From the NCBI GenBank assembly GCA_903903765.1, contig CAIVAH010000255.1, positions 1 through 28,251 of the forward strand: 28,251 nucleotides of DNA, written 5' to 3'. Below the pieces are notes generated by a model. The model was not told the origin of the DNA, did no database searches, and saw only the letters and a list, made by a program, of their open reading frames with translations. Below, one piece after another: positions 10,176 to 28,251 of this stretch; the first letter of the stretch is position 1; every line of letters starts with the position of its first letter. Made by a program: the position numbers and the translations under genes. The DNA comes from an uncultured Methylococcaceae bacterium. GTDB taxonomy: Bacteria > Pseudomonadota > Gammaproteobacteria > Methylococcales > Methylomonadaceae.

Positions 10176-12746
10176 TTAATAAATGTTTTGGGGAAATAAG
10201 GTTTTTATAAAATATACAAGTTTTTTACCTTTCAAAAAATATTTAGTAATTCTATTTGGAACTGAACGAGCCAAAATTATGTATCCATGAAAACCAACAG
10301 TCACTATATCAAGTAAACTAGTCAATGGTTTATCGATACTAAAGTTATCTTCCCAACTGCACCAAGCATCTGATCGTGAATAATTACATTTAACAAAATC
10401 TCTCCTTTGCTTTTCGGTGAGATTATCCAATAAAAGACCCATGTAAACTTTGTTTATAGAAGAGATAACGGCAGGAAACACATATTCTCTATTACCATGT
10501 GATAATATCACATGAATATGTTCATTTTTATTAAAATTTAAGTTATCTGCGTATAGTTGAACACCTAAGCCAGAATCAGAATAGTTGTTCATTCTTGCCT
10601 TAAATAAATGCCCCGAACTATTTCTTATAACAATGTCTGTTTTTACATCAATTCGATGATTTAATCTTAATTGTTTTGTTTCTTGAGCAACGCTAATTGC
10701 TCCACCTAAGACTAATAGATTATAAGTTGCCCAAACAATATTTATAATCACAGTCGAAACTTCATACTCTGGCCCATAAATATATCGATAAATACCAAAA
10801 CAAATACCAACTATATTAAAAAATATCAGTATTAGATATGGTTTAGAAACCCTTAAATCAAAAAACTCTTCTTTTATAATTCCACCCTTAGATGTAACAT
10901 TAAATGAACCTACATTTGGTTTAAATAATGCAACTGTTGTTGGAATAGCAATGTACCAAGCTAACACGGCTTCATAAATTTCAGCCCAAAAGGAGAATCG
11001 ATGTTTCCCTTGCATATAAGAATTTGCAAGGTTGGAATGAATAATAGACGGCAATGCATACAATAGTATTTCATTAGTCGGTGCATGAATAATATACGCA
11101 TGAATAATTAAATAGGCTAAAGGTGCTATTAGAAATATTAAACGCGGAATGCCACCAAAAAAATGTAACATAGCATTGGCATAACATAGGCGTTGGCTAA
11201 ACTTTAAGCCGATACCCGTTAGGGGATTATCAATTCTAAAGATTTGCGCCATACCTCGTGACCAACGAATTCGTTGACCAATGTGAGCGGATAATGTTTC
11301 TGTCGCTTGTCCAGCTGCTTGTATGATATTAATGTATGCTGATGTATACCCTTTACGATGCAATTTTAAGGCGGTATGGGCATCTTCAGTAACCGTTTCG
11401 ATAGCAACGCCACCGATTTCTATTAAAGGTTTTCTCTTTAATATTGCACATGATCCACAAAAAAAAGCAGCGTTCCACAAATCATTTCCATCTTGAATGA
11501 CGCCGTAAAACAGACTGTTTTCATTAGGCGTTTTTTTGAAATTACTTAAGTTTCGTTCAAATGGATCAGGGGAGTAGAAATGATGAGGGGTTTGAATTAA
11601 AGCTAGTTTTTTATCTTTAATAAACCAGCCCATTGTGGTTTGTAAAAAAGATCTAACCGGGATGTGATCGCAATCAAAAATTGCGATATATTCACCATGA
11701 CTTGATTGCATGGCATTATTAATATTTCCAGCTTTTGCATGAGTATTGTTGACTCTACTGATGTAGCCTACACTTACTTGTTCTGCAAGTTCTTTTACTT
11801 CATGACGATTTCCATCATCAAGAATGTAGATGTTAATTTTTTCTTTTGGCCAATCTATATTAGTAGCCGCTATTGTTGTAGTTTTGATAATTCCAATTGC
11901 TTCATTATAGGTCGGTATGAAAATATCCACTGTTGGCCATAAAGAGATATCGTTCGATAATAAATGTGCTTTTCTCTGTAAAGGACCAGCAATTTGAAAA
12001 TAACCCAATAACAAAATCAGCCATGTATAAACTTCTGCTATAAATAAAATAATACTAAAAGTGGTGTCAATACTACTGTCAGTGTTGATAGTCGATGTAG
12101 CTCTCCAAAACAAATATCGTGAAGCTAATGTTAAAGAGAGAATCACTAATATTAATTTTGGTAAGTAACCTTTAGTTTTACGAACTGACATTGCAACAAT
12201 CCACATGATTACTACAAATATCAATTGAGAAGTAATATTAAATGGAATGGTTAGACATACTATCGCTAATAAGAAAATAATAAATAGATAAATCTGTGGC
12301 CTAAACTGACCATCATTTGAACTGTCAGAATTTTCAATATCATTAAGGATTTTTCCTGAACTGGCCTCAAAAACTTTAAATGGAAAAAAAATGATTGAAA
12401 ATCCACGATAGATGATTTTATTGATTAAATTTAAGTTATCAAGTAACTTATCATAGGGACTTGATTGATTGATGAAGCTGATCCAAATCAACTGAATAAG
12501 GATTCGAAAAATATCAAGAAATGAGATTCTTGCTAATTGTACTTGGGGTAAAAAAACTCTTAACGATTTTGTTACATGTAAACGTTTTGATTCGTGGCAG
12601 TATATAGATAATAAAAAAAAGACTAATAAACCTAATATAAGGCCACTTTTTTCGGGTTTATGACTAAAATAGTGTTTTTTAAAGCTTATCCATGCCTCGT
12701 TAAATTGTGAGCCATAAAAAGTTGAATAAATCACATTTGAAATCAT
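10176..12746 (-). CDS. bcsA: Cellulose synthase catalytic subunit BcsA, UDP-glucose-dependent, with PilZ domain
   Basis: An 856-residue inner-membrane GT2 enzyme polymerising UDP-glucose into beta-1,4-glucan (E. coli 872). The catalytic motifs are DDG (310-312), DCD (358-360), FFCGSC (428-433), TED (453-455) and QRIRW (491-495), all intact. The gating-loop motif 'FNVTSKGG' is at 615-622. Multiple membrane helices flank the domain. The C-terminal PilZ domain has both c-di-GMP elements, RLNHR (694-698) and NYSDSG (721-726), so activation by c-di-GMP should be retained. An N-terminal region of about 150 residues precedes the main helices, as in Enterobacteria. Its ATG overlaps the bcsQ stop by 4 bases (ATGA), indicating translational coupling. 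Confidence 0.96.
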   Translation of the reverse strand: MISNVIYSTFYGSQFNEAWISFKKHYFSHKPEKSGLILGLLVFFLLSIYCHESKRLHVTKSLRVFLPQVQLARISFLDIFRILIQLIWISFINQSSPYDKLLDNLNLINKIIYRGFSIIFFPFKVFEASSGKILNDIENSDSSNDGQFRPQIYLFIIFLLAIVCLTIPFNITSQLIFVVIMWIVAMSVRKTKGYLPKLILVILSLTLASRYLFWRATSTINTDSSIDTTFSIILFIAEVYTWLILLLGYFQIAGPLQRKAHLLSNDISLWPTVDIFIPTYNEAIGIIKTTTIAATNIDWPKEKINIYILDDGNRHEVKELAEQVSVGYISRVNNTHAKAGNINNAMQSSHGEYIAIFDCDHIPVRSFLQTTMGWFIKDKKLALIQTPHHFYSPDPFERNLSNFKKTPNENSLFYGVIQDGNDLWNAAFFCGSCAILKRKPLIEIGGVAIETVTEDAHTALKLHRKGYTSAYINIIQAAGQATETLSAHIGQRIRWSRGMAQIFRIDNPLTGIGLKFSQRLCYANAMLHFFGGIPRLIFLIAPLAYLIIHAYIIHAPTNEILLYALPSIIHSNLANSYMQGKHRFSFWAEIYEAVLAWYIAIPTTVALFKPNVGSFNVTSKGGIIKEEFFDLRVSKPYLILIFFNIVGICFGIYRYIYGPEYEVSTVIINIVWATYNLLVLGGAISVAQETKQLRLNHRIDVKTDIVIRNSSGHLFKARMNNYSDSGLGVQLYADNLNFNKNEHIHVILSHGNREYVFPAVISSINKVYMGLLLDNLTEKQRRDFVKCNYSRSDAWCSWEDNFSIDKPLTSLLDIVTVGFHGYIILARSVPNRITKYFLKGKKLVYFIKTLFPQNIY

Positions 12747-13510
12747 GCGGAAACTTTATGACTAAAATGCAACATAATCCAAGTCGCTAAAGTTTTAAAC
12801 TGTTTACTTGTCGCAGACTCTGGCGAATATAACTGTACGGTTGTTTTTTGCGCTAAGGCTTCTTTGATATTTTCATCATAATAAATCTTAACGGGGATCA
12901 ATGAATTGGCTAAATGTGCTTTTAAAACTAATGATGTATCATGATCCAACTGACTAAGTGGCATAAACTTATTGATTAAGTACAAACATTTAGTATTTAA
13001 TGCAGAATCATTTTTTAAATAATTGGATTGAATTGAATCACTAATCAATGAGACAGAGATCACTTGTGGTTCGATTACTCTAATAATACTATCGGCATAC
13101 TTTAATGCTTGTATGCTCAACTTATTTAATTCACTTCCTGTATTTAAGATAAGCCATTTTTTTTTCGAATTTTTTGCAAGATTTAGTTTTTCAGACAACC
13201 AAGTATCAGTATTAATTTTTTCTAAAAGATCAAGTTGATTATCATAGGAAATCCCTCCAAATGGAATAAAATTAACACCTAACTCGCACTTAAAACCGGC
13301 TTTATACCAAGCTTCATCGTTAAGCACATTAAGCGCCCAACCTGATTTATTGAACCAGTCCATGTTAAAATGCAATCGAAGTAAGTTACTAGGATTTAAG
13401 TCAATAACCAATACATCTTGATTTAAATCATATAAATTTCTTGCTACATTGGCCGTCACTGTAGAAGAACCGACGGATGACTGGATACCTTGTATACACA
13501 AAACTGGCAT
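12743..13510 (-). CDS. bcsQ: Cellulose biosynthesis ParA/MinD-like protein BcsQ (YhjQ)
   Basis: A 255-residue SIMIBI-class NTPase related to MinD/ParA. In E. coli BcsQ works with BcsR at the cytosolic face of the synthase, and is needed for cellulose secretion. 'NLLRLHFNMDW' and 'SGWALNVLNDEAWYKAG' closely match E. coli BcsQ. The Walker A region reads GIQSSVGSST (8-17), with neither the deviant nor the standard lysine of the KGGVGKT motif. E. coli BcsQ (GVRGGVGTT) also departs from the canonical motif, but this copy loses the GG as well. The gene starts directly after the bcsR stop (TAAATG) and overlaps bcsA. Confidence 0.92.
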   Translation of the reverse strand: MPVLCIQGIQSSVGSSTVTANVARNLYDLNQDVLVIDLNPSNLLRLHFNMDWFNKSGWALNVLNDEAWYKAGFKCELGVNFIPFGGISYDNQLDLLEKINTDTWLSEKLNLAKNSKKKWLILNTGSELNKLSIQALKYADSIIRVIEPQVISVSLISDSIQSNYLKNDSALNTKCLYLINKFMPLSQLDHDTSLVLKAHLANSLIPVKIYYDENIKEALAQKTTVQLYSPESATSKQFKTLATWIMLHFSHKVSA

Positions 13511-13681
13511 TTATTTTCTTTTATCCTCGTGGAAGAAATCAAAACTAGTTATTTCTTTGATTAAAGACCATTTATCAATGATTTCTTTAAGTTCTTCAAT
13601 TTCTTTTATTTCTATATAGCTATAATGGGTTATACCCAAACTTTTATATAATTCTGAAACATCATCTTTATCATAATCCAT
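13511..13681 (-). CDS. bcsR: Small cellulose regulator BcsR (YhjR)
   Basis: A 56-codon frame from ATG at 13681 to TAA at 13511, lying between bcsG and bcsQ. The C-terminal half 'YSYIEIKEIEELKEIIDKW' then 'SLIKEI' matches the E. coli BcsR pattern 'Y-x-DI...E-x-L...L-x-x-W-PLL-x-E'. In E. coli BcsR forms a complex with BcsQ that controls assembly of the Bcs macrocomplex. It precedes bcsQ as in E. coli and its stop codon abuts the bcsQ ATG. Length is close to E. coli BcsR (62). It is acidic and lacks the E. coli N-terminal extension. Identification rests on position plus the weak sequence pattern. Confidence 0.82.
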   Translation of the reverse strand: MDYDKDDVSELYKSLGITHYSYIEIKEIEELKEIIDKWSLIKEITSFDFFHEDKRK

Positions 13682-13689
13682 AAGACTTA

Positions 13690-15291
13690 TTACTCAATTT
13701 CATATTTCAACCATTCATTTTTATTGAAAGAATAAAAATAATCATTATTGTATTTCATAACAATTGATCCTTCGTTTTCAGAGAGTAGGGGAGTTGTAGG
13801 TGCTCCAATTATTAACTGCTCTGCACTAAACGCTTTTTTACTAAATACATCTTGAATTAAAAGTTCGTTTACGATATGTCCAATTACCGTATAGCTAGAG
13901 GGTTCCTTAACACGGATTTGATTACCGGATCGAACAATGTCACTACCGATTATTTTTAATCCGACTGGTACATTGGTGATTTTGGGACTTGCTAATTCAC
14001 GCATACCTGCTATTTGAACTTTGTCACCTCTAATATTTGCACCATGTTCTGGAACAAATAACACAACAATAGGCTTATTAGTTTTTTTAAGTTCATCCAA
14101 TAAATTATAAAAATCATTTAATAAATTGGTCAGTCTTTCTTCATAAGTTTCAGAAGACGTTTGTGATTTTTTATATTGATAATGGACGCCATCATGTAGG
14201 CTAACGGTATTATAAAGAGTGAATTTTTTATTGCTTTTACTCACATTTCTGTTTTGTAACCATAAAGTAAACATATCACTATCACGATGAATATATGAAT
14301 TATCAAAGTTTAAGAGATAGGGTTTTAAATTAAAATGGTTAGGTCTGACTTGTAAATCACCTTTATCGACCACTAATGGTGCAAAATTATCGAAGTTACC
14401 ATCATGATTTAATAAAAACTCTATGTCGTATCCTAAATTTCTTAAATTATTTGCTAGATAGCATTGTTTGTTAGAGGGTTGACTCATTATTGAGTTATGA
14501 CTTTTCTGGCCACAGTTTGCCTGTAATAATCTTACAACTGCTGGTCCACTGTATGAGGTAGCCGTATTAAAGTTTTCATACAAAAGATCAAATTCTTTAA
14601 ATAACTTATGATTTTCCAAATGATAGAAATTTATATCATCCCAGGCTAATGAACAGACACTTAATATCAAAATATCAAAATCCACTTTAGGTAATACATC
14701 ATTTCTTAAACCCAATTGGATAGTAGATTGTTTCTCAAAGAAATCTTTTTCGTATTGAGTTAAATTATCATTTAGTGAGGATGAACTACTACTTGAATTA
14801 GTTTTATCCAAATATGAATAGTTATTTGTTTTTGAATTTGCATTGATATTTGCTGCGTTATGAGCATTAATATGATTAATGAATAAAATCAAGATAACCG
14901 TTATCACCACTGAAGTCATTCGCAATACATTAAAAAGCATAAAATACAATACTGTACATATGAACAATATTAATATGAAATTTAACGATATAAATCTTGA
15001 TCCAAGTTCTAATAAATAATTTAAGCCAAACTGCGAGATTTGTGATGTCTGAGCCAGTGCATGACTTATTGGAGGCAAATAAGAATCATCGTATAGGATG
15101 TATAAGGCTATGGGTATTGCAATTAATTGCTGCAATACAAAATATAGTCTAGTTTTAATAGGAATGATTAAAAATATTAAGAACGCGAAGTTTCTTAAAT
15201 AATCAAATTCAATTATGCCATTAAGAAATAATACTATCTTAACAACAAAATATATATTCCAAGCGCCTATAGTATATTCACTCGACTTCAA
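13690..15291 (-). CDS. bcsG: Cellulose phosphoethanolamine transferase BcsG
   Basis: A 533-residue protein with an N-terminal multi-helix membrane domain (about residues 13-140), a seven-serine linker (166-172) and a periplasmic alkaline-phosphatase-fold domain. BcsG transfers phosphoethanolamine from phosphatidylethanolamine to cellulose. Catalytic and zinc residues are conserved: Cys213 in 'SVCSLAWDD' (E. coli Cys243), the nucleophile Ser248 in 'TSYSGP' (Ser278), and Glu415-His416 in 'VPEHGAN' (Glu442-His443). 'MRELASPKITNVPVGLKIIG' also matches. It starts 2 bases after bcsF and stops 8 bases before bcsR. The presence of all key residues implies modified (pEtN) cellulose. Confidence 0.94.
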   Translation of the reverse strand: MKSSEYTIGAWNIYFVVKIVLFLNGIIEFDYLRNFAFLIFLIIPIKTRLYFVLQQLIAIPIALYILYDDSYLPPISHALAQTSQISQFGLNYLLELGSRFISLNFILILFICTVLYFMLFNVLRMTSVVITVILILFINHINAHNAANINANSKTNNYSYLDKTNSSSSSSSLNDNLTQYEKDFFEKQSTIQLGLRNDVLPKVDFDILILSVCSLAWDDINFYHLENHKLFKEFDLLYENFNTATSYSGPAVVRLLQANCGQKSHNSIMSQPSNKQCYLANNLRNLGYDIEFLLNHDGNFDNFAPLVVDKGDLQVRPNHFNLKPYLLNFDNSYIHRDSDMFTLWLQNRNVSKSNKKFTLYNTVSLHDGVHYQYKKSQTSSETYEERLTNLLNDFYNLLDELKKTNKPIVVLFVPEHGANIRGDKVQIAGMRELASPKITNVPVGLKIIGSDIVRSGNQIRVKEPSSYTVIGHIVNELLIQDVFSKKAFSAEQLIIGAPTTPLLSENEGSIVMKYNNDYFYSFNKNEWLKYEIE

Positions 15292-15293
15292 AA

Positions 15294-15473
15294 TTAGTCC
15301 TCACGCGATTTGAAAAATTTTGAAAATTTTACAGGTTGAATAATCTCAGGCTTTCCACTTAATATGCGCACTGCTTTTATAATAAAACACCATAAATCTT
15401 TAATAATAAGCCCTAAGCCAACACCCGATACAAAAGCTAAAGACGCAGTAATTATAAAATCGTCAAAATTCAT
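15294..15473 (-). CDS. bcsF: Small inner-membrane cellulose regulator BcsF
   Basis: A 59-residue protein with one N-terminal membrane helix ('FIITASLAFVSGVGLGLII') and a basic tail containing 'SGKPEIIQPVKF', resembling the 'AKPRYVKPA' of E. coli BcsF (63 residues). BcsF recruits BcsE to the membrane so that it can stimulate BcsG. The ATG at 15473 was chosen over the longer frame from 15521, which would overlap bcsE by 38 bases. With this start the gene lies 10 bases after the bcsE stop. It ends 2 bases before bcsG. Recognised mainly by position, size and the tail motif. Confidence 0.85.
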   Translation of the reverse strand: MNFDDFIITASLAFVSGVGLGLIIKDLWCFIIKAVRILSGKPEIIQPVKFSKFFKSRED

Positions 15474-15483
15474 GTCAGTTTTC

Positions 15484-17115
15484 TTAAAATATATTATGTG
15501 GCTTGGCAGGATTTCTGACATTTACACTAGGTGTTTTTACTGGCATTTCCATATTGGTAACGCTGTCTGTGTCGTCGTATGTTTCTGATTCTGTGTTGCC
15601 TGATATCATAGATTTAATTTCAAATCTTATTTCATCAGTATATGTAAACACTTCTTGTTCTAGAAATAATTCTTCATAAGGTAAAATAAATAAATGTGCA
15701 AGCGCATTTGCAATTGCGGCTAATTCGCACTGATACAAAAACAAATATAAAAAACCATTACAATGCGTAAAAACATCGCCATTCCGTTTTATTCGAATTA
15801 AATTAAATACTTCCTCAATCGGTATTACTTCATTTAACTTAAATTTAATTAATGAAGAGTTGATTTCCATTTTTTGTGCATAATCAATAAGTATGTTGAT
15901 TTGCTCAACAAACTCATCAACACTCATAGCACCTTTACTATAACTATTAATATCTATTTGATTATATTCTTCAATGTTATTTGGAATCACACGTGAATAA
16001 TAACAACCTTGCATCGCATCCACCATTGAAATAAATTTTAGAAACTCAACAGACTTAGGAATAACGATATTAGCGCCTAGATTGATTAATAATTTCTCAT
16101 CACTATTTCGTAACGGTAAATTCATTTCACGCACAATGATTTTTAATTGTCTTCCACCTTTTCTACGAACATGAAGGATTTGCTGTGCTAATTCAGATAC
16201 GTGTTCAGATGAAATGGTATAGATAATGATGGTTGCAATTGAATCATGGCCAATAATATTAAATATTTCATCAAAGTCATTAACGAGTTCCCATTTACGG
16301 GGATATAACTCATGTGAAAGGGAAGATGGTTTTAGTAATAAAGTTGTTTCTTGACCAGTTAAAGGTGACATTAATGATACCAAAGAAGGAGTTTTACTGA
16401 ATTTATCGATTGATAATTGATGATTATCTTCATCAAATATCAGGTCTAATGAGATATTTGCTTGCACTGACATTTTAAGATGCCAAAATAATATATTATA
16501 TTTAATATTAATGCTTTCATAATCGATAACCGTTAAGCCATTAAATAAATTATTAAATTTAGAAAATTGTTTATGCGTTACGTTAGATGATTGATCACCA
16601 TAAATAATCCAAAGACACATCATATTCTGGCTGATAAACCAACTTTGCCAAGATGATAATAAAAATGCTAATTCCATCTCTGTCATTGATAAAAATATAT
16701 CTTGATAAATGTCGATAACAATCAAATCAAAATCAGCGAATTTTTTACTTGAAATATCACTTTTAATTTTTTTAAAAAATAAATTGTATTCCTCAACATA
16801 GATAAAATTTAATGATAAATGCCCAGTTCTATATATTGCCATCAACTTATCAGCTTTATTTTGAGGCACATTAAAAACATCACTCTTATCTTCAAATGAT
16901 AATAAAGCAGTTTTATTAGAAGCATTACTGATTATTGTTTCAACAATGATGGATCTCGCCATAGCTAAGGTGGGTACAGATAAAGCAAAAAGACCTGGCT
17001 TTTCAATGGAATTAAATTTTGGATCCAAATCAACAATACCAATAATTGACTGACTTGTTGTCAAACTATTAGCATCATGATGACCATCATTTTGTTTTAC
17101 CAGTCGTAACTTCAT
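15484..17115 (-). CDS. bcsE: c-di-GMP-binding cellulose regulator BcsE
   Basis: A 543-residue cytosolic protein (E. coli 523) of the BcsE family (DUF2819). BcsE binds c-di-GMP through a degenerate GGDEF-like region and enhances cellulose output through BcsF and BcsG. The RxGD I-site motif is present as RNGD (444-447, in 'IKRNGDVFTHCNG'), aligning with the RTGD of E. coli. The receiver-like segment 'GRQLKIIVREMNLPLRNSDE' (321-340) matches E. coli. The start ATG at 17115 leaves a 47-base gap after bcsC. So c-di-GMP sensing should operate at both BcsE and BcsA. Confidence 0.92.
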   Translation of the reverse strand: MKLRLVKQNDGHHDANSLTTSQSIIGIVDLDPKFNSIEKPGLFALSVPTLAMARSIIVETIISNASNKTALLSFEDKSDVFNVPQNKADKLMAIYRTGHLSLNFIYVEEYNLFFKKIKSDISSKKFADFDLIVIDIYQDIFLSMTEMELAFLLSSWQSWFISQNMMCLWIIYGDQSSNVTHKQFSKFNNLFNGLTVIDYESINIKYNILFWHLKMSVQANISLDLIFDEDNHQLSIDKFSKTPSLVSLMSPLTGQETTLLLKPSSLSHELYPRKWELVNDFDEIFNIIGHDSIATIIIYTISSEHVSELAQQILHVRRKGGRQLKIIVREMNLPLRNSDEKLLINLGANIVIPKSVEFLKFISMVDAMQGCYYSRVIPNNIEEYNQIDINSYSKGAMSVDEFVEQINILIDYAQKMEINSSLIKFKLNEVIPIEEVFNLIRIKRNGDVFTHCNGFLYLFLYQCELAAIANALAHLFILPYEELFLEQEVFTYTDEIRFEIKSMISGNTESETYDDTDSVTNMEMPVKTPSVNVRNPAKPHNIF

Positions 17116-17162
17116 TCTAAAGAGTCTCTTATTTGTGAATTAAGCTAAATGAAAACAGAAAG

Positions 17163-20100
17163 TTAATAATCAGCATAATCATTAATAGTATTTGGAACTT
17201 TAGGAGGGGTACTTATAGCATCCCAATGTTCATTAAAATCGTATTTTAAGTACAATCCAACATTACTTGGGTTATAAAATAAAGCACGTTGTATCTGCGC
17301 ACGCCCACCGATTGACCAGTGATCAGTTAAACGTTTCTCAATAACAGCGCTCACCCCATAAGTAAAAGCATGAGTTTCACTGCCTAAATAAGTTGTTGTT
17401 AATCCGGAGTTCAAAGCTTGGTCTTGCAAAATCGGATCATTTGGGTAGTAGTCAGAATCGTTAACTTTTGAATAAGAGTAAGCGCCAGTAACACGAAGGG
17501 AATAAGCCAAATCAGAATAACGGCCATAGAGTGTTATAGGTAATGATAGCGATGCATAAGCTTGGGGACTAAAATACCCACCATTACCAAAACTAAATTC
17601 ATTTTGATTATTAGCATAGTGCATAAAAAGAGTATTTAAACCCCAATCGACATTACTTAGATTTTTAGTGTCCTTCCATAAAGCACCATAAATACCAACC
17701 TGTCCTTGAAACTTATCATTATCCTTTAAATTCTGACCATTTATGTACTGATATTGCCAATTTGACCAAACTCCAACGGCACTTCCGTCATCATATCCCA
17801 AACTGAATCCGGCGCCATTTTGTCTAGCTCCACCCCAAATTTGTTGGGTATAAGGATCAGTAAGTCCAGCATATGATAGAACGGTATTTCGGATTGGTCG
17901 ACGTGATGCATTAATGGCCCATGAAAATGCATTAAAGTCTCCATCCAATCGTAAGCCACCTACCACATCTGAAACTAAGAAATTTTCTGGTGTTCTACCA
18001 ACATCAACCATCCAATTCTTACCCATCCAGCCAACGTTATAACCAACGCCTGTTGCTATTGGGGTTGAGTTATTTTGGCCACTTAAATGTAATTGCGATG
18101 TTCCAAAATCTTTAGCATTTAAGTTTTGTAATTCACCTTCTAGATGTACTGGATTAACTCTAATTATTGCATGACCAATATTATTTACTGGCAACTTTGC
18201 TTCAATATTAGCGGCTAATGAACTAGTATTAGTCCCAAAACGGTAATCAGGAAAGAATGTCACATAACCATCAGATTTCTTTCGCAATTCGTCTATATTT
18301 GATTTAACATTACTCGTTAGCCAATCAACATTGCTATTTTGATAAAGCCATTTTTTATCAGCTTCATTGATGATAGTGGTGTCTATCTTAGCTGTAAGCA
18401 AATTTTCTTCAAATTTGTTATTGGCTTTATTAGCTTGTAACGCCGCATAACATAACCGCTCAGCTAAACGCCATTTTTTCATGTATAAAGCGGATTTTGA
18501 TGCAATATAAAGTGCGCGATCTTCACTACGTTTATCTAATAATAGTTCTTGCATTGCCGTTTCAGCTTGTTTGAACTGTTCTAAATCTACAAGAATCTGT
18601 ATACGTTTTACTTTCGGGTAATCAGAGTATTTATCTAAACTTACTAATTTATCAAAATGTTCATCAATCCATAGTGAAATCAATTGACGCGTACTTTCTG
18701 GGTTTTTTGAGTTTATATTTTGTGCTTGTTTTGATTCTAAGAAAATTGCCGAGAATAAAGTATCATTTTGGAGCAGTTGTAAATAAATCTCTTTAGCTTG
18801 TGCTATTTTGTTTTGAGCGACCAATTTATTTGCTTGATCAATTTTGTACTCAAATATGATTTGATTATATTGTTCAAGTTCGTCATTTGAAGCAAGCTTC
18901 AAATTAATTTTTTTATCAAGATTGGCTAACTTATCAAAATCTTTTAGTTTAGTCAGTATACGAGCGTAATCTAATTGAGTAGAAATAGGCCACTGAGCTG
19001 AGTATTCCAGCTTATTAATAACTTTTCTGGAATGTTCCTTTACATCTATATCATATAGAGTATTCGCAATTTTAATTAAAAGTTTAGGCTCTTTATTTGC
19101 GTTTTCCTCAAGCGTAGTTAGATAATTAATGGCTTTCGCTCTATCTTCTTTTAATAAACTTTCAATATGATTAAATTGGTAATTGAGTGATAAACGTTGT
19201 TGCGCTTCAATCATCCCAATGGTGCGTTTATCCGGATTGATTTTATTAATTTCATTTAATGCATCAATTGCACGGCCATTTTTAGATAGATATAAAGCAT
19301 ATGCATAGCTTATCTCATCAGATAAAATATTGTTTTTTAAGTAATCTAAAACGTACTTGTCTGCATCTGCCTTTCTATTTAGTTTATTAAGTAAATTAGC
19401 TAAACTAAAGATAAGCCAGGGGTCTTGGGTTTTAAATCCTGAAGCAAAATTAGTTTTCTCAGCGGCTAAAGCAATATTATGCTGTATTAGGGCTGTTTCA
19501 GCATCTGCGATTGTTGATTGTAATTTTTTATCGGACAGAAAATTTGCAATTACTTTTTTCTGTGAATCATTGTATTGGTCAGATAAAGTAAAAGCTTGCA
19601 CAGTCTTATTGTTATCAAATAACAAATTAAATCTTCCTACCAATGCTGAATAATTAGACTCATTAATGCCAAGCGCTTTAATGAAATATTCATCTGCTAA
19701 AGCTATGTTATTTGTGCTCGCGTAGATTTTTGCAATTGCGATATAGGGTGAGATTTCACTAGGATCCTGCAATATTTTTTTATTGTATTGGTCAATTACA
19801 TATTGCTTGTTAGCATTACTTGTTGCCAATTTATCAATTTGTAATAACTCAATCCAATAATTGGCTTTAGCTATCAATGCGTCCCAATTGGTTTTTTTAG
19901 CATTATTTCCGCGCAGTTTCTTTCCTTGTAGAAAAAAATCTTTAGCTTCACTGTAATTATTTTGACCTAATTTGGTGTTACCCAAACCTAAATAAACTTG
20001 TGAGTCTTTCGGATGTATTTGTTTTGCAATTAAAAAACTTCGTTCAGCTAACTCATATTCTGAATTATCAAGATGAGAAAATCCTTTTAAAAGAGCTTGA

Positions 20101-20936
20101 TATCCAGGGTCATGGATTTTATTATTGTAAGCAGTAAATTTTGATCTTAAATCCTTTACCTTCTCAATGACCTTTTCATCATAAGGAAATGTTGTAGCTA
20201 ATTTGTCGATATCAAAAGTTGTTAAATTTTCAACAGGAATCTCTGATATAGCGTTAAGCCATGCAGAAACAGTTTCCGGAGAATGAGTATCAGCATTAGA
20301 TAGTTGATCGTAAAGTCTAAGTGATTTTTTTACATCTGATTTATTGCTATTAGCTAATAAATTTGCATAGGCTAATTTATATTCTTTAATATAGGGATAT
20401 TCTTTAATTCTGGCTTCTAAGATTTGTTTTGCTTTGGTGTTATCACGTCCATTGTTGTAACCAAGCATATCTAGATACTCAATATCTAGACTAATAGTTG
20501 GCATGCCGTAGGGGAATAAATCTTGATAAATGCTAATTGATTCGCTTTTTCTTTGATTACCCGATAAAAAGCGAGCTTGCTGCAATTTGAGCTTATTGGG
20601 CCCATAGGCATAAAACAAACTTTTTAAAATGTTTAATCTGGGATCGTTCGCGTTTTTAGATTCAAGTATCGCTATATTCTTTTTAGCATTTTCACTATCA
20701 CCCTTAAGAATATTGATCTCAGCTTGTAAATATAGCACCTCAATATTGTTGTTATCAATTGATAACCAATGTTCTAACGCGGAATCAGCAATATCAAATC
20801 TATTGTCGATTTCAGCGATTAAAATCTGTTGCTTAAGGCGTTCAATTTGATTTGTTGAATCTGCTTTTGCATTTAAACCGCCATTCATAATTATTAAACT
20901 TAGGGTTAATAATTTAATGCGTTTTTTTTGTGACAT
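17163..20936 (-). CDS. bcsC: Cellulose export outer-membrane porin BcsC with periplasmic TPR scaffold
   Basis: About 1257 residues from ATG at 20936. The signal peptide is 'MSQKKRIKLLTLSLIIMNGG', followed by LNAKA. A long alpha-helical TPR superhelix fills roughly residues 30-880. The C-terminal part is an outer-membrane beta-barrel (from about 900) with 'WGLNTLFMHYANNQ' and 'GRYSDLAYSLRVTGAYSYSK', typical of the BcsC barrel. BcsC secretes the glucan through the outer membrane. An in-frame ATG at 20978 would add 14 residues before the signal peptide and lacks a ribosome binding site; AAAGG at 20947-20951 supports the shorter start. It is longer than E. coli BcsC (1157), mainly in the TPR region. 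It is the first gene of the operon. Confidence 0.92.
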   Translation of the reverse strand: MSQKKRIKLLTLSLIIMNGGLNAKADSTNQIERLKQQILIAEIDNRFDIADSALEHWLSIDNNNIEVLYLQAEINILKGDSENAKKNIAILESKNANDPRLNILKSLFYAYGPNKLKLQQARFLSGNQRKSESISIYQDLFPYGMPTISLDIEYLDMLGYNNGRDNTKAKQILEARIKEYPYIKEYKLAYANLLANSNKSDVKKSLRLYDQLSNADTHSPETVSAWLNAISEIPVENLTTFDIDKLATTFPYDEKVIEKVKDLRSKFTAYNNKIHDPGYQALLKGFSHLDNSEYELAERSFLIAKQIHPKDSQVYLGLGNTKLGQNNYSEAKDFFLQGKKLRGNNAKKTNWDALIAKANYWIELLQIDKLATSNANKQYVIDQYNKKILQDPSEISPYIAIAKIYASTNNIALADEYFIKALGINESNYSALVGRFNLLFDNNKTVQAFTLSDQYNDSQKKVIANFLSDKKLQSTIADAETALIQHNIALAAEKTNFASGFKTQDPWLIFSLANLLNKLNRKADADKYVLDYLKNNILSDEISYAYALYLSKNGRAIDALNEINKINPDKRTIGMIEAQQRLSLNYQFNHIESLLKEDRAKAINYLTTLEENANKEPKLLIKIANTLYDIDVKEHSRKVINKLEYSAQWPISTQLDYARILTKLKDFDKLANLDKKINLKLASNDELEQYNQIIFEYKIDQANKLVAQNKIAQAKEIYLQLLQNDTLFSAIFLESKQAQNINSKNPESTRQLISLWIDEHFDKLVSLDKYSDYPKVKRIQILVDLEQFKQAETAMQELLLDKRSEDRALYIASKSALYMKKWRLAERLCYAALQANKANNKFEENLLTAKIDTTIINEADKKWLYQNSNVDWLTSNVKSNIDELRKKSDGYVTFFPDYRFGTNTSSLAANIEAKLPVNNIGHAIIRVNPVHLEGELQNLNAKDFGTSQLHLSGQNNSTPIATGVGYNVGWMGKNWMVDVGRTPENFLVSDVVGGLRLDGDFNAFSWAINASRRPIRNTVLSYAGLTDPYTQQIWGGARQNGAGFSLGYDDGSAVGVWSNWQYQYINGQNLKDNDKFQGQVGIYGALWKDTKNLSNVDWGLNTLFMHYANNQNEFSFGNGGYFSPQAYASLSLPITLYGRYSDLAYSLRVTGAYSYSKVNDSDYYPNDPILQDQALNSGLTTTYLGSETHAFTYGVSAVIEKRLTDHWSIGGRAQIQRALFYNPSNVGLYLKYDFNEHWDAISTPPKVPNTINDYADY

Positions 20937-21028
20937 GTTTAAAAAACCTTTAATCTCTAAGCTTCTATTAATTTCCATATTGAAAATACGTACACAAGGT
21001 TTTTTTTAAAATTCTATTAAGAATCAAA

Positions 21029-23037: not shown

Positions 23038-25866
23038 ATGAGTAAGCTGATAGAAGTTTTTCAAGATTCATCATCATTGCAAGGCAGCAATGCAACCTAT
23101 ATTGAAAGTTTATACGAGCGCTATTTAGATGATCCCGAATCTGTAGAAATCAGTTGGCAAAAACATTTTAAAGAAATACAGCAAGGTTTGGCGTATGAAA
23201 CGCCACATAGTCCCGTTGTTGACAGATTTGCTGAGTTAGCAACACAATCACATCGCCGATTAGCTCAACTACAAGGCTTTACTGAAGAAAGCGTAAAAAA
23301 ACAAGCTGCCGTTTCTAGACTTATCAACCATTACAGGGTGCGTGGGCATCAGATAGCTAATAGTAATCCGCTAGGAAAAAGTATCCAACCAACTTCAGAT
23401 ATGGATCCGTCTTACTACGGATTAACTGAGTTAGATATGGATACTTTATTTGATACGGGTGCAATACAAGGGGGTGTCGACCGATTAACGTTACGAAATA
23501 TTATTGACAATTTAAGGGCTATTTATTGCGCAAGTATTGGCTCCGAATTTATGCATATTGTTGATACTAAAATTAGACGCTGGTTAATCAATCGATTAGA
23601 GACATCAAAAGCGACCGTTTCCTTAAATACTAATCAAAAACTGGAGATACTTAAATTATTAACAGCTGCTGAAGGTATCGAAAGTCATTTACATCATCGC
23701 TTTGTGGGACAAAAGCGGTTCTCTCTTGAAGGTGGAGAATCATTAATACCAATACTAGACGAATTAATACAAAGTTCTAGCCAAAAAGGCGTAAAAGAAA
23801 TCGTGATTGGCATGGCACACCGTGGTCGCTTGAACGTATTAGTCAATATATTAGGTAAAAGCCCAGCAAGTTTATTTGATGAGTTTGAAGGAACTTCATC
23901 TTTATTGCCTGGTGCTAAATCAGGGGATGTTAAATATCACATGGGATTTTCATCCAACTTAGACACTCCAACTGGCCCGGTGCATGTCACTTTAGCGTTT
24001 AATCCTTCACATTTAGAAATTATAAATCCCGTAGTAGAAGGCTCAGTTAGAGCTCGCCAAGATAGAGCAGGTGAGGAAGGTGTAAGTACGGTTATACCTG
24101 TTTTAATACATGGTGATGCTGCTTTCTCTGGACAAGGAATCGTAATGGAGACACTTAATATGTCTCAAACGCGGGCATTTTATACCGGTGGCACAGTGCA
24201 TATCGTGATCAACAATCAAATTGGCTTTACGACTAGTAATCCATTAGATGCGCGATCAACTTTATATTGTACTGATGTAGCTAGCATGATTCAAGCGCCA
24301 GTATTTCATGTAAATGGTGATGACCCAGAAGCCGTTATCTTTGTGACTAAACTAGCACTAGATTATCGAATGACCTTCAATAAAGACGTAGTAATTGATC
24401 TTATTTGTTATAGACGACTAGGACATAACGAAGCTGATGAACCTGCTGCGACTCAACCTTTAATGTATAAAAAAATTCGTAAGCATAAAACTACTCGAAA
24501 AATTTATGCTGAAAAATTAATCAGTGAAAAATTATTAAGTTTTGATGCTGCGTTAGCAATGGAGCACGATTATCAAAAACTATTAGAAGCAGGTGCTGTG
24601 GTTTCTAGGCCTATCTCTAAGAACCCAGAATACTCATACACCAATCAATGGTTTAAATTCCTTAATACAACTTGGGATACCCCTGCAAATACAGCAATAT
24701 CTTTAGATTTTTTGCGATTTTGTAATGATCGAATGCAACGTTTACCCGCTGGATTTGAATTACATCCAAGAGTTGCAAAAGTCATGGACAATCGTCGCAA
24801 AATGGCAGCAGGCGCATTACCCTTGGATTGGGGTTTTGCAGAAAATCTAGCCTATGCCAGTTTACTTTTAGAAAAACATCCCATAAGAATTACAGGGCAA
24901 GATGTTGGACGCGGGACTTTTGTGCATCGACATGCCGTATTACATAATCAACTTAACAATAAAACCTACACCTCCTTAAAGCATTTAGACAAAGAGCAAG
25001 GTAGCGCGTTGATCTTTGATTCTTTATTATCTGAAGCCGGTGTTTTGGGTTTTGAATATGGTTACAGTACAACAACACCGAATTCATTGGTGATTTGGGA
25101 AGCCCAATTTGGTGATTTCGCTAATGGTGCACAAGTTGTTATTGATCAATTTATTAGTTCGGGTGAAACTAAATGGGGACGGCTTTGTGGATTAGTGATG
25201 TTATTACCCCATGGCTATGAAGGGCAGGGGCCTGAACATTCATCAGCAAGATTAGAGCGGTATTTACAATTATGTGCAGAAAATAATATCCAAGTTTGCA
25301 ACCCTACAACGCCAGCCCAAATCTTTCATCTACTTCGTAGACAAATCATACGTCCATACCGAAAACCATTGGTTATTATGAGTCCAAAGAGCTTATTAAG
25401 ACATAAATTGGCGGTATCTTCTTTGGAAGATTTAAGCTCAGGACAATTCCAAACTATTATCCCAGAACACATTAAAGTTAATCCAAAAGAGGTGACACGG
25501 TTTATTTTATGTGCAGGTAAAGTCTATTACGATTTACTTGAAACGCGAGATCAAGATAATTTAAAAAATATCGTTATCTGTCGATTAGAACAGCTTTACC
25601 CATTTCCGGGAAAACAACTTAAAACAGAATTAGCTAAGTATCCCAATTTAATCGAGTTCATTTGGTGCCAAGAAGAACCAAAAAATCAAGGTGCTTGGTA
25701 TCAATTAAAACACCATTTTACAGATCAACTAGACTCGAATATTAGTTTATTCTATGCGGGTCGCGATGCTTCTGCAGCACCCGCGGTTGGAAAATTCCAC
25801 GTCCATATAGAACAACAAAAAGCTGTCGTTCATTCGGCCTTATACGGCAATACCTTAGGAAATTAA
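23038..25866 (+). CDS. sucA: 2-oxoglutarate dehydrogenase E1 component
   Basis: A 942-residue thiamine-diphosphate-dependent E1o, decarboxylating 2-oxoglutarate and succinylating the lipoyl group of SucB in the TCA cycle. The N-terminal segment '[16 protein letters not shown]' is the E1o-specific E2-interacting region. Catalytic and cofactor motifs are intact: '[10 protein letters not shown]' (259-268, matching His260-His261 region of E. coli), 'GDAAFSGQG' (359-367), '[10 protein letters not shown]' (391-400), 'GDDPE' (427-431) and '[12 protein letters not shown]' (458-469). The C-terminal '[20 protein letters not shown]' is typical. Length is as in E. coli (933). It starts the sucA-sucB-lpd operon; the gap to sucB is one base, with GGAA in the final codons serving as the sucB ribosome binding site. 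Confidence 0.96.
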
Positions 25867-25867
25867 T

Positions 25868-27142
25868 ATGAGCATCGAAGTAGTAGTACCGCAATTACCC
25901 GAATCAGTATCTGATGCAACATTAATCAACTGGCAAAAAAAACCAGGGGACTTTGTTAATAAAAATGAAAATTTAGTCGATCTTGAAACGGACAAAGTAG
26001 TATTAGAAGTAACCGCACCAGAGTCTGGCATCCTAAGTCAAATACTTAAAGAAAATGGCACAATAGTAACGGCCGGTGAAGTGTTAGCTATATTACAAAT
26101 TCAATCCGCCGAAGAAAATACTATTGTGGAACCGATTGAAAAATCAACACAAACGCCGCTTAATAACGAAGAAGACATGCCTCTAAGTCCTTCAGTGCGC
26201 CGCTTAATTCATGAGAATGGCTTAAATCCTAATGAAATCACCGGGACAGGTAAAAGTGGTCGATTAACTAAGTCTGATGTATTAGAACATCTTAATAGCT
26301 CATCATCAATTACTGTAGAACTAACTGCTGTAACAAACGAGACTGTTCAACCCGGAAGTCCAATCAGTGCGGCAAATAAACAAGAAGCACCTGAATCTAC
26401 AATTATTACTCCATCAGATTCTATCAACACGTCTTCTAGCATACGCCCTGAACAGCGCGTAGCGATGACCCGTTTAAGGGCAAAAGTTGCAGAAAGATTA
26501 TTACAAGCGCAACAAAATGCTGCTATGTTAACCACCTTCAATGAAGTTAATATGCAAAATGTAATTGATTTACGTAATCAGTACAAAGATCGTTTCGAGA
26601 AAAAACATGGCGTAAAACTTGGTTTTATGTCTTTCTTCGTTAAAGCCTCAATCGAAGCTTTAAAACATTTCCCAGCCATTAATGCCTCAATTGATGGGAG
26701 CGATATTATTTATCATGGTTACTATGATTTAGGAATCGCGGTCAGTACACCACGCGGACTGATTGTGCCAGTCTTGCATGATGCGGATCAACTAGATTTT
26801 GCAGGTATAGAGAAAAGTATTGCCTCTTATGGTGAAAAAGCGCGGGCAGGTACCTTAAGTTATGATGATCTAAAAGGTGGAACATTTACTATTACAAATG
26901 GTGGCGTGTTTGGTTCTATGTTATCTACGCCAATATTAAATCCACCGCAATGCGCAATCTTAGGTATGCATGCCATTAAAGAACGGCCTGTTGTTGAAAA
27001 TGGCCAAATTGTTATCAGACCGATTATGTATCTCGCACTCTCATATGATCATCGTTTAGTTGACGGTCGAGAAGCGGTACAATTTTTGGTAACAATAAAA
27101 GAATGTTTAGAATCTCCAGCTCATTTATTATTAAACATTTAA
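25868..27142 (+). CDS. sucB: 2-oxoglutarate dehydrogenase E2 component (dihydrolipoyl succinyltransferase)
   Basis: A 424-residue E2o forming the core of the complex and transferring the succinyl group to CoA. One lipoyl domain with the lipoylated Lys43 in '[11 protein letters not shown]' occupies residues 1-78. A peripheral-subunit (E3/E1)-binding domain follows at about 105-141 ('[20 protein letters not shown]'), then a Ser/Thr-rich flexible linker and the catalytic domain from about 193. His395 and Asp399 in 'SYDHRLVDG' are the catalytic pair. The E3-binding domain is intact, which matters because the next gene is an apparently redox-inactive E3 homologue. Confidence 0.96.
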
Positions 27143-27146
27143 TATT

Positions 27147-28251
27147 ATGCCCAATATTAGCAAAGCTTATTATGATGTCATTGTTATTGGCACAGGCCCA
27201 GCTGGATACGCAAGTGCTGTTCGCTGTGCAGAATTAGGATTGAATACTGCATGTATTAATACGCGAGATGATGCAAATCATAAAGATACGCATCTTAATA
27301 CAGGTAGTGTGGGCACCATGGCATTATTAGAATCTGCTAAAAAGTACCACAGTTTAATCCACGAATTTGCTCAACACGGTATTTTTGCGAACGATATAAA
27401 TTTTGATATAAAAACGGCATTAAGTAGAAAAGATAAGATTCTTGCTGAAATTGGCCAAAAAATGATTGAGCTATTTCATAAGCATAAAATTGAGCATATT
27501 CATGCAAAAGCACGTTTATTAAATGCCCACCAAATTGAGATTATTGATGATAAAACTTATTTAAAGTCAATAATAAATGCTAAATATATTATCTTAGCTT
27601 CGGGTTCAGAATCTATAACTCTACCTACTATTGAAATCGATAATGAATTTATATTTGATGCTAAAGCAGCACTAAATCTAAAAGAAGTTCCCAAAAAACT
27701 GGCCATTATTGGTGCTGGCGTCATGGGGTTAGAACTGGCAAATATCTGGAGTCGGTTTGGTGCAGACACCATTTTATTAGAAGCTCAAGAAAACTTTCTA
27801 TCGGTACTTGATCACGAGGTATCAGGTGCTGCATTTAGTCTATTTCAAAAACAAGGCCTTGATATACGAATAGGTGCTAGAGTGATATCTGCTAAAAAGG
27901 GCAGTAAACACATTACAATTGAATATCAAGATCAAGACGGCACACATAGCTTAAAAGTTGATAAAGTTATAGTTGCTTGTGGTAGCAGACCGAATACCAC
28001 AAATTTAGCGGCACCTGAGGCAAACTTATTATTGGATCAAGATGGTTATGTTTATGTAGATGAGCATTGTCGTACCAATTTACCAGGGGTTTACGCAGTA
28101 GGTGATCTTACATTATTAGGACCGATGTTAGCTCATAAAGGCATAGAAGAAGGTATCTTTGTTGCTGATTTTATAGCCGGTATCAATAATCCCATCAATT
28201 ATGATATTTTACCCAGTGTTATTTATACAGAACCCGAAATTGCTTGGGTAG
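27147..28251 (+). CDS. Dihydrolipoyl dehydrogenase-like flavoprotein lacking the redox disulfide (3' end beyond window)
   Basis: The frame opens at ATG 27147, 4 bases after sucB, and stays open to the window edge (368 residues). It has the Lpd fold. FAD-binding GTGPAG is at 15-20, the 'ILASGSE' motif at 149-155, NAD-binding 'IIGAGVMGLELA' at 187-198, and 'GVYAVGD' at 314-320. The family's redox motif CLNVGCIPSK is replaced by HLNTGSVGTM (49-58): both active-site cysteines are missing (His49, Ser54) and the following lysine is Met. The C-terminal dimerisation domain with its catalytic His-Glu is outside the window. Position implies E3 of the 2-oxoglutarate dehydrogenase complex, but the chemistry of E3 cannot work without the disulfide. 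No strong ribosome binding site; probably coupled to sucB. Confidence 0.9.
   Translation, partial: MPNISKAYYDVIVIGTGPAGYASAVRCAELGLNTACINTRDDANHKDTHLNTGSVGTMALLESAKKYHSLIHEFAQHGIFANDINFDIKTALSRKDKILAEIGQKMIELFHKHKIEHIHAKARLLNAHQIEIIDDKTYLKSIINAKYIILASGSESITLPTIEIDNEFIFDAKAALNLKEVPKKLAIIGAGVMGLELANIWSRFGADTILLEAQENFLSVLDHEVSGAAFSLFQKQGLDIRIGARVISAKKGSKHITIEYQDQDGTHSLKVDKVIVACGSRPNTTNLAAPEANLLLDQDGYVYVDEHCRTNLPGVYAVGDLTLLGPMLAHKGIEEGIFVADFIAGINNPINYDILPSVIYTEPEIAWV

Follow-up and report, generated by a model that had tools for sequence, protein, structure and literature searches.

The window analysed here is one entire contig (G000:C255, 28251 bases) of a metagenome-assembled genome (MAG) from a Methylococcales methanotroph, an assembly of 1.92 Mb in 328 contigs that is 80% complete. 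Three genes lie head to tail on its forward strand: sucA for the E1 component of 2-oxoglutarate dehydrogenase (23038..25866; NCBIfam NF006914, 1337.8 bits against a cut-off of 764), sucB for the dihydrolipoyl succinyltransferase E2 (25868..27142; NF004309, 586.2 bits, cut-off 449), and an lpd-like gene (27147..28250) whose frame starts 4 bp downstream of sucB. This frame is open as far as it can be seen, and the contig end cuts it before its 3' end. SucB keeps the lipoyl motif ETDK, the DHRLVDG motif and an E3-binding domain at residues 106-139 (26183..26284, forward strand; Pfam PF02817, 47.3 bits, cut-off 23.7), and is thus as intact as the first-pass annotation of this DNA had described it. 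The reverse strand of the window carries, by Pfam, a cellulose synthesis cluster (10176-20978) with a PilZ-containing glycosyltransferase (10176-12746), BcsG (13690-15291), BcsE (15484-17115) and the BcsC C-terminus (17163-20978). On another contig of the same MAG (G000:C107, locus L005) a 263-residue frame (407-1198) has motifs that we take to indicate a proteorhodopsin-type rhodopsin, and behind it a carotene-desaturase-like frame begins (1483-1857).

The lpd-like protein is homologous to the Pseudomonas fluorescens Lpd 1lpf (phmmer 1.9e-92). The FAD motif GTGPAG (27189..27206), the NAD motif GAGVMG (27711..27728) and the GVYAVGD motif with the FAD aspartate (28086..28106) can all be read on the forward strand, as the first-pass annotation had noted. 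The CLNVGCIPSK motif of 1lpf aligns with HLNTGSVGTM, so that both redox cysteines are replaced: H49 (CAT, 27291..27293) stands for the interchange cysteine and S54 (AGT, 27306..27308) for the charge-transfer cysteine, all on the forward strand, at the very codons named before. The annotation had concluded that the means for E3 dithiol chemistry are missing from the protein, and we agree on the basis of H49, S54 and also M58 (27318..27320, forward strand), which replaces the CIPSK lysine. This methionine had been missed, as had a stretch before the motif that is 4 residues shorter than in 1lpf, the old and stepwise nature of the loss and its tie to methanotroph physiology. Around 110 C-terminal residues, including the interface domain and the catalytic His-Glu, lie beyond the window end. 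The protein, of which about 77% lies before the cut, scores 309.2 bits against TIGR01350 (cut-off 408.8). This cut-off is reached by most complete family members, G014 and G026 being below it, so that TIGR01350 does not test the active site. The six closest relatives (L015-L020, 80-85% identical) have complete frames that end in HARPTLSE, with Arg for the catalytic His in all six.

To describe how widespread this state is we surveyed 201 sampled genomes of the window's family (f1) at a match threshold of E <= 1e-75. An lpd-like match was found in 148 genomes from 25 of 29 genera, and SucA in 196 genomes from all 29. At this threshold no sucAB-type lpd copy was found in four SucA-bearing genera of the sample (g15, g22, g23 and g31), g15 being represented by a single genome that is 77% complete. 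We read 144 of the 149 matched places, leaving out five partial ones (G165, G203, G219, G224 and G229). The aligned set of 154 orthologs combines 143 of these places (the window's own excluded) with 11 further genomes of the window's genus; 17 duplicate loci, frames below 340 residues and three rows from f2, f5 and f6 were kept out.

The first cysteine is kept in none of the 154 orthologs (Y 73, H 52, F 27, N 1, V 1), and its place is taken by an aromatic residue (Y, H or F) in 152; three rows have a Cys one place further along. The CIPSK lysine is likewise kept in none (M 68, I 45, L 23, V 17, F 1). The other catalytic residues are retained more often, namely the second cysteine in 108, the catalytic His in 111 (otherwise R 29, Y 8, gap 4, other 2) and the catalytic Glu in 124 (otherwise K 20, gap 4, D 3, S 3). 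The cofactor sites are nearly invariant: the FAD glycines are kept in 153, 153 and 151 rows, the FAD Asp and each of the three NAD glycines in all 154, and the Glu opposite the lost Lys in 151. The NAD-ribose acid is E in 132 rows and D in 22, and the FAD-side acid is D in 148 and N in six.

Taken per genus, the first Cys and the Lys are absent in all 25 genera read. The window's genus has lost the second Cys and the catalytic His, as have some further genera; most genera outside it retain these residues. The 31 rows of the window's genus show H, then G, S or D, then M at the three motif sites, and the catalytic His is absent in every row showing that place, with Arg nearly always instead. By this pattern the loss is old and stepwise, with the first Cys and Lys gone throughout and the second Cys and His gone in some genera. 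A thiol or acid-base role may persist in the genera that keep the second Cys, His or Glu, and the function may differ between genera. Database homologs show the same state. Among the best 120 of about 8000 matches to the window protein the first-Cys place is H in 118 and Y in two, and among the best 120 of about 8000 for a distant family member it is Y in 73, F in 45, H in one and unreadable in one, so that the first Cys is missing in all 239 readable proteins of the two lists. The names among the nearest matches include Methylobacter, Methylovulum, Methylicorpusculum and 'Methylococcaceae bacterium'. The active site is also in this state in single-contig genomes, for example G018, G116 and G133.

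A quick maximum likelihood tree with 74 rows places all 46 rows from f1 on one side of a branch with an SH-aLRT of 99; this tree includes the motif columns, has no bootstrap, and its long rows such as L105 are unsure. Intact relatives are found in the same order. In f7, the family of Cycloclasticus, and in f8, CLNVGCIPSK is present in all 20 loci L269-L288 and in all seven loci L062-L068, the latter with HAHPTLSE or HSHPTLSE. The intact comparison set of the 154-row analysis comprises 12 of 19 loci, the other seven having been assigned to the PDH query. With the Cycloclasticus ortholog as query, both Cys, the Lys, the His and the Glu are kept in all of the best 120 of about 8000 matches, which include other Gammaproteobacteria. 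The single copies read from f5 (YMSAGS) and f2 (FLNSGC) are without the first Cys. An lpd copy in the f6 genome G052 (L105) reads SLLNGC, with the first Cys lost and the second Cys and Lys kept, and has no sucAB nearby; a match resembling it lies on G242:C140, also from f6. In a class-wide sample 91 of 185 genomes match a disulfide-free query, and the 30 best of these 91 matches all have SucB in the flank and keep both cysteines; the thirtieth of these loci, L322, reads GGTCANVGCIPSK. Among the sequences read, the disulfide loss thus appears to be confined to Methylococcales. A simple tie of the loss to pMMO is not clean: PF02461 is found in 5 of 7 Cycloclasticus-family genomes and in both f8 genomes, and no PF02461 protein was found in G000, G037, G040, G045 and G242.

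The altered motif keeps its place beside sucAB, as the first-pass annotation had proposed to look for in related genomes. Measured frame to frame, the distance to a SucB upstream on the same strand is at most 200 bp for 142 of the 154 orthologs and at most 400 bp for six more, giving 148 in total; of the exceptions, two rows are cut by contig ends and four have no SucB in the stretch examined. ETDK is found in 175 and the DHRxVDG pattern in 174 of 178 Methylococcales SucB rows, a set that includes duplicates and some lineages without lpd. Some loci are arranged otherwise: SucA stands without an adjoining SucB frame in L262 (G070, g23) and L266 (G044, f2), and sucB-lpd and SucA lie on different contigs in G037 and G040. 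Genome G227 has two disulfide-free Lpd copies (C6 and C131; L135 and L158), the second on a short contig, which may reflect a strain mixture.

Pairwise NG86 medians give a rough measure of selection, as dS is near saturation in several groups and unusable pairs were dropped. On this measure the dN/dS of the disulfide-free protein is 0.055 in the window's close group and 0.036, 0.134, 0.058 and 0.068 in four others, and that of SucB in the same groups and order is 0.062, 0.081, 0.095, 0.083 and 0.071. The intact Lpd has 0.034 in f7 and 0.043 in f8 (one pair). The value of 0.134 belongs to g39, where it exceeds those of SucB (0.095) and SucA (0.058). These ratios indicate purifying selection on the disulfide-free lpd beside sucB. 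Private decay of the window gene is ruled out by the family survey together with dN/dS, and the first-pass argument against plain decay, which had relied on the open frame, gains from a state fixed across the family.

If the sucAB-linked protein does not act as E3, the activity has to come from elsewhere. An Lpd of at least 493 bits to TIGR01350 is present in 57 of 61 genomes (the exceptions are G000, G007, G009 and G025), a count in which the sucAB copy is the one that counts for seven f7/f8 genomes. The non-sucAB, PDH-type Lpd of relatives reads CLNVGCIPSK in all 23 loci read (L069-L091), and an E2-like frame 27% identical to SucB adjoins it in L107, L109 and L111, the three loci viewed with flanks. 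The frame of this Lpd has about 580-680 residues rather than about 480 in G042, G048, G053 and other f7 genomes and in G051 and G054 of f4; the longer frames probably carry an N-terminal extension. The idea of an E3 elsewhere, raised in the first-pass annotation, therefore holds for the relatives; in the window's own MAG no second Lpd was found. This is no evidence of absence, given a completeness of 80% and a PDH operon that runs into a contig end: the only aceE match in G000 spans positions 1-111 of 885 and breaks off about 2 bases before C76 ends. The gene can also be missing altogether. No lpd follows sucAB in two g22 genomes, one g31, two f4 and one f6 genome, and the lpd of G066, a g19 genome, is fragmented, possibly by assembly error. 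The f4 loci come from M. capsulatus-type genomes of what we take to be the Methylococcus family, in which the gene is absent in both loci read. The sucAB-linked lpd is thus dispensable in some lineages, and since relatives have an intact PDH-type Lpd, E3 activity can come from there. Judged by gene content, E3 supplied in trans appears to be a workable arrangement in Methylococcales.

The explanation that we place first, at slightly short of an even bet, is that an ancient disulfide-free 'E3' has been kept as an NADH-linked FAD flavoprotein docked on SucB, with the true E3 acting in trans; the function is one that we infer. The third gene of the methanotroph sucA-sucB-lpd operon would no longer yield a working lipoamide dehydrogenase. 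Its product would still be a dimeric FAD protein reducible by NADH and would still be seated on SucB at the E3-binding domain, and a different protein, the PDH-type Lpd, would re-oxidise SucB's dihydrolipoyl groups. FAD would be the only resting place for NADH electrons in a protein without the disulfide. A NADH-reducible flavoprotein on the SucB core is therefore to be expected; in the passages of PMC6296175 that describe them, Irc15p is reduced by NADH and LpdA is similar. Its role would be that of a non-disulfide flavoprotein on 2-oxoglutarate dehydrogenase, either of the diaphorase or quinone-reductase type or as a redox sensor. The first-pass annotation had left the choice between a structural or regulatory pseudo-E3, an alternative oxidoreductase and a relic. 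The retained FAD and NAD(H) motifs would lean towards the alternative oxidoreductase over the pseudo-E3.

The main rival, possible but in our view rather unlikely, is a catalytically silent pseudo-E3. It would do no more than fill the E3-binding domain of SucB, or lend the complex stability, and by competition with the PDH-type Lpd it would restrain or adjust 2-oxoglutarate dehydrogenase. It would account well for the operon linkage to sucB, the E3-binding domain that SucB retains, the E3 fold in our structural model of a close relative and the well conserved interface domain (mean 0.78 over 25 genus representatives). It would also suit the reports that type I methanotrophs lack 2-oxoglutarate dehydrogenase activity although the genes exist (passages of PMC517821 and PMC5023229). 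However, a mere plug would not need the NAD glycines kept in 154 of 154 rows, lineages without the gene exist within the same family, and cited 13C work points to a complete oxidative TCA cycle on methane in M. buryatense 5GB1 (passages of PMC6456754, PMC6373157 and PMC10602362). A further reading, in which the E3-shaped flavoprotein takes the E3 seat of SucB, is unable to receive electrons from dihydrolipoyl groups and so sets the flux by competing with the PDH-type E3, with the NADH/NAD+ state of the flavin as the readout, seems unlikely to us. If it is true, type I methanotrophs would carry a built-in brake that partly explains, at the molecular level, their 'missing' 2-oxoglutarate dehydrogenase.

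It is improbable that the protein is a relic, an E3 made redundant by the PDH-type Lpd and heading for loss. Several lineages have indeed lost the gene: the sucAB-type copy is absent in four of the 29 genera with SucA, the g22, g31, f4 and f6 loci have sucAB without it, it lies in pieces in G066, and the active site has eroded further in the window's genus. Yet the dN/dS medians of 0.036-0.134, the kept cofactor motifs and a first-Cys replacement that is aromatic in 152 of 154 rows rather than random all weaken this option. That the protein is still an E3, through some unusual chemistry or a thiol that is supplied from elsewhere, is very improbable despite its operon place, its fold and the TIGR01350 cut-off passed by most relatives, as both cysteines and the Lys are gone in the window's group, the catalytic His is gone in all six nearest relatives and an intact Lpd is present in relatives. 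A sequencing, assembly or binning error, which an 80% complete MAG in 328 contigs might invite, can practically be dismissed: the same state in 239 of 239 readable homologs from two lists of the best 120 of about 8000 and in the single-contig genomes stands against it, and the family-wide survey rules out a sequencing error at the window motif.

A docked flavoprotein with the E3 in trans bears on an old question of methanotroph physiology. According to a passage of PMC5023229, no gammaproteobacterial methanotroph has ever been shown to have 2-oxoglutarate dehydrogenase activity. For M. alcaliphilum 20ZR, a passage of PMC5802761 reports pyruvate dehydrogenase at 120 (methane) and 290 (methanol) nmol/min/mg and gives 'N.D.' for 2-oxoglutarate dehydrogenase; the entry is left unexplained in that passage, and the methods describe an assay. 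Our genome G094 is Methylotuvimicrobium alcaliphilum 20Z (8000 bases compared to NC_016108.1, 100% identical). Its sucAB-linked copy reads GGTYINAGCVSSM and is of the disulfide-free form, and its other Lpd reads GGVCLNVGCIPSK. For M. buryatense 5GB1, passages of PMC6456754, PMC6373157 and PMC10602362 give the full oxidative cycle on methane and little TCA flux on methanol, and a passage of PMC6373157 argues that Methylomonas sp. DH-1 runs a complete cycle. Both the absent-activity and the full-cycle reports are compatible with a complex that relies on the PDH-type Lpd, perhaps in limiting supply, as its E3. Loss of function in lpd alone does not explain absent activity in f4, because the f4 loci do not have the gene. 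Whether type I methanotrophs run the complete TCA cycle is a question that a passage of PMC6373157 still describes as unsolved.

Database entries call these proteins dihydrolipoyl dehydrogenase. This name encourages users to assign them as the 2-oxoglutarate dehydrogenase E3, a role that known chemistry would rule out on the residues read here, and it bears on metabolic models of industrially used methanotrophs. Our results make it testable whether the TCA cycle of type I methanotrophs is complete and what the source of its E3 is, and with it the old puzzle of why 2-oxoglutarate dehydrogenase activity is so hard to find in methanotrophs. Disulfide-free Lpd homologs are already known. In our searches of the open-access literature we found no description of one that is operon-linked to sucAB, fixed through 25 methanotroph genera and accompanied by an intact sister in Cycloclasticus.

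The structural model was made for P0003, a complete relative 82% identical to the window protein, and speaks to fold identity only. It has a mean pLDDT of 88.6, with residues 41-50 beside the motif less sure (mean 59), and shows the E3 fold with a TM of 0.95 to Pseudomonas LpdG (5u8v) at 42% identity. Two known groups of homologs were rejected as a home for the window protein. Against NF005883, the LpdA-type NAD(P)H-quinone dehydrogenases, to which we take Mycobacterium tuberculosis LpdA to belong, the truncated protein scores 153 bits (cut-off 479), and against NF003585, the soluble transhydrogenase SthA, it scores 197.5 bits (cut-off 465), again on the truncated protein. Among the closest known systems, the Cycloclasticus sucAB-linked Lpd and Pseudomonas LpdG share the operon place, Cycloclasticus also the order, and the proteins found with the Cycloclasticus query differ in keeping both Cys, the Lys, the His and the Glu. 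SthA is described in a passage of PMC6296175 as a flavoprotein without at least one redox Cys and without a catalytic His. The same source describes LpdA as an Lpd homolog without the full disulfide or the catalytic dyad, which is a quinone reductase without disulfide reductase activity (PMC6296175). LpdA resembles the methanotroph protein in its incomplete disulfide, and the difference is that the window protein falls below the NF005883 cut-off.

The nearest known analogue of the methanotroph disulfide-free 'E3' is Irc15p of Saccharomyces cerevisiae, an Lpd paralog and FAD protein without the redox cysteine pair. In the passages of PMC6296175 that deal with it, NADH reduces Irc15p at a rate of 250 per second, and ferricyanide and menadione, unlike lipoic acid, accept its electrons. 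The two proteins, likened by description, have in common that the redox cysteine pair is missing and that a canonical Lpd is encoded elsewhere in the genome (PMC6296175). The absence of both cysteines holds for the window's genus, and most other genera keep the second Cys. Irc15p differs in that it is eukaryotic, microtubule-associated, keeps the His-Glu dyad and has no operon partner from a dehydrogenase complex, as far as the same passages describe it (PMC6296175). The methanotroph protein would thus be a bacterial, operon-linked case of an E3 that has lost its disulfide and yet stays under purifying selection.
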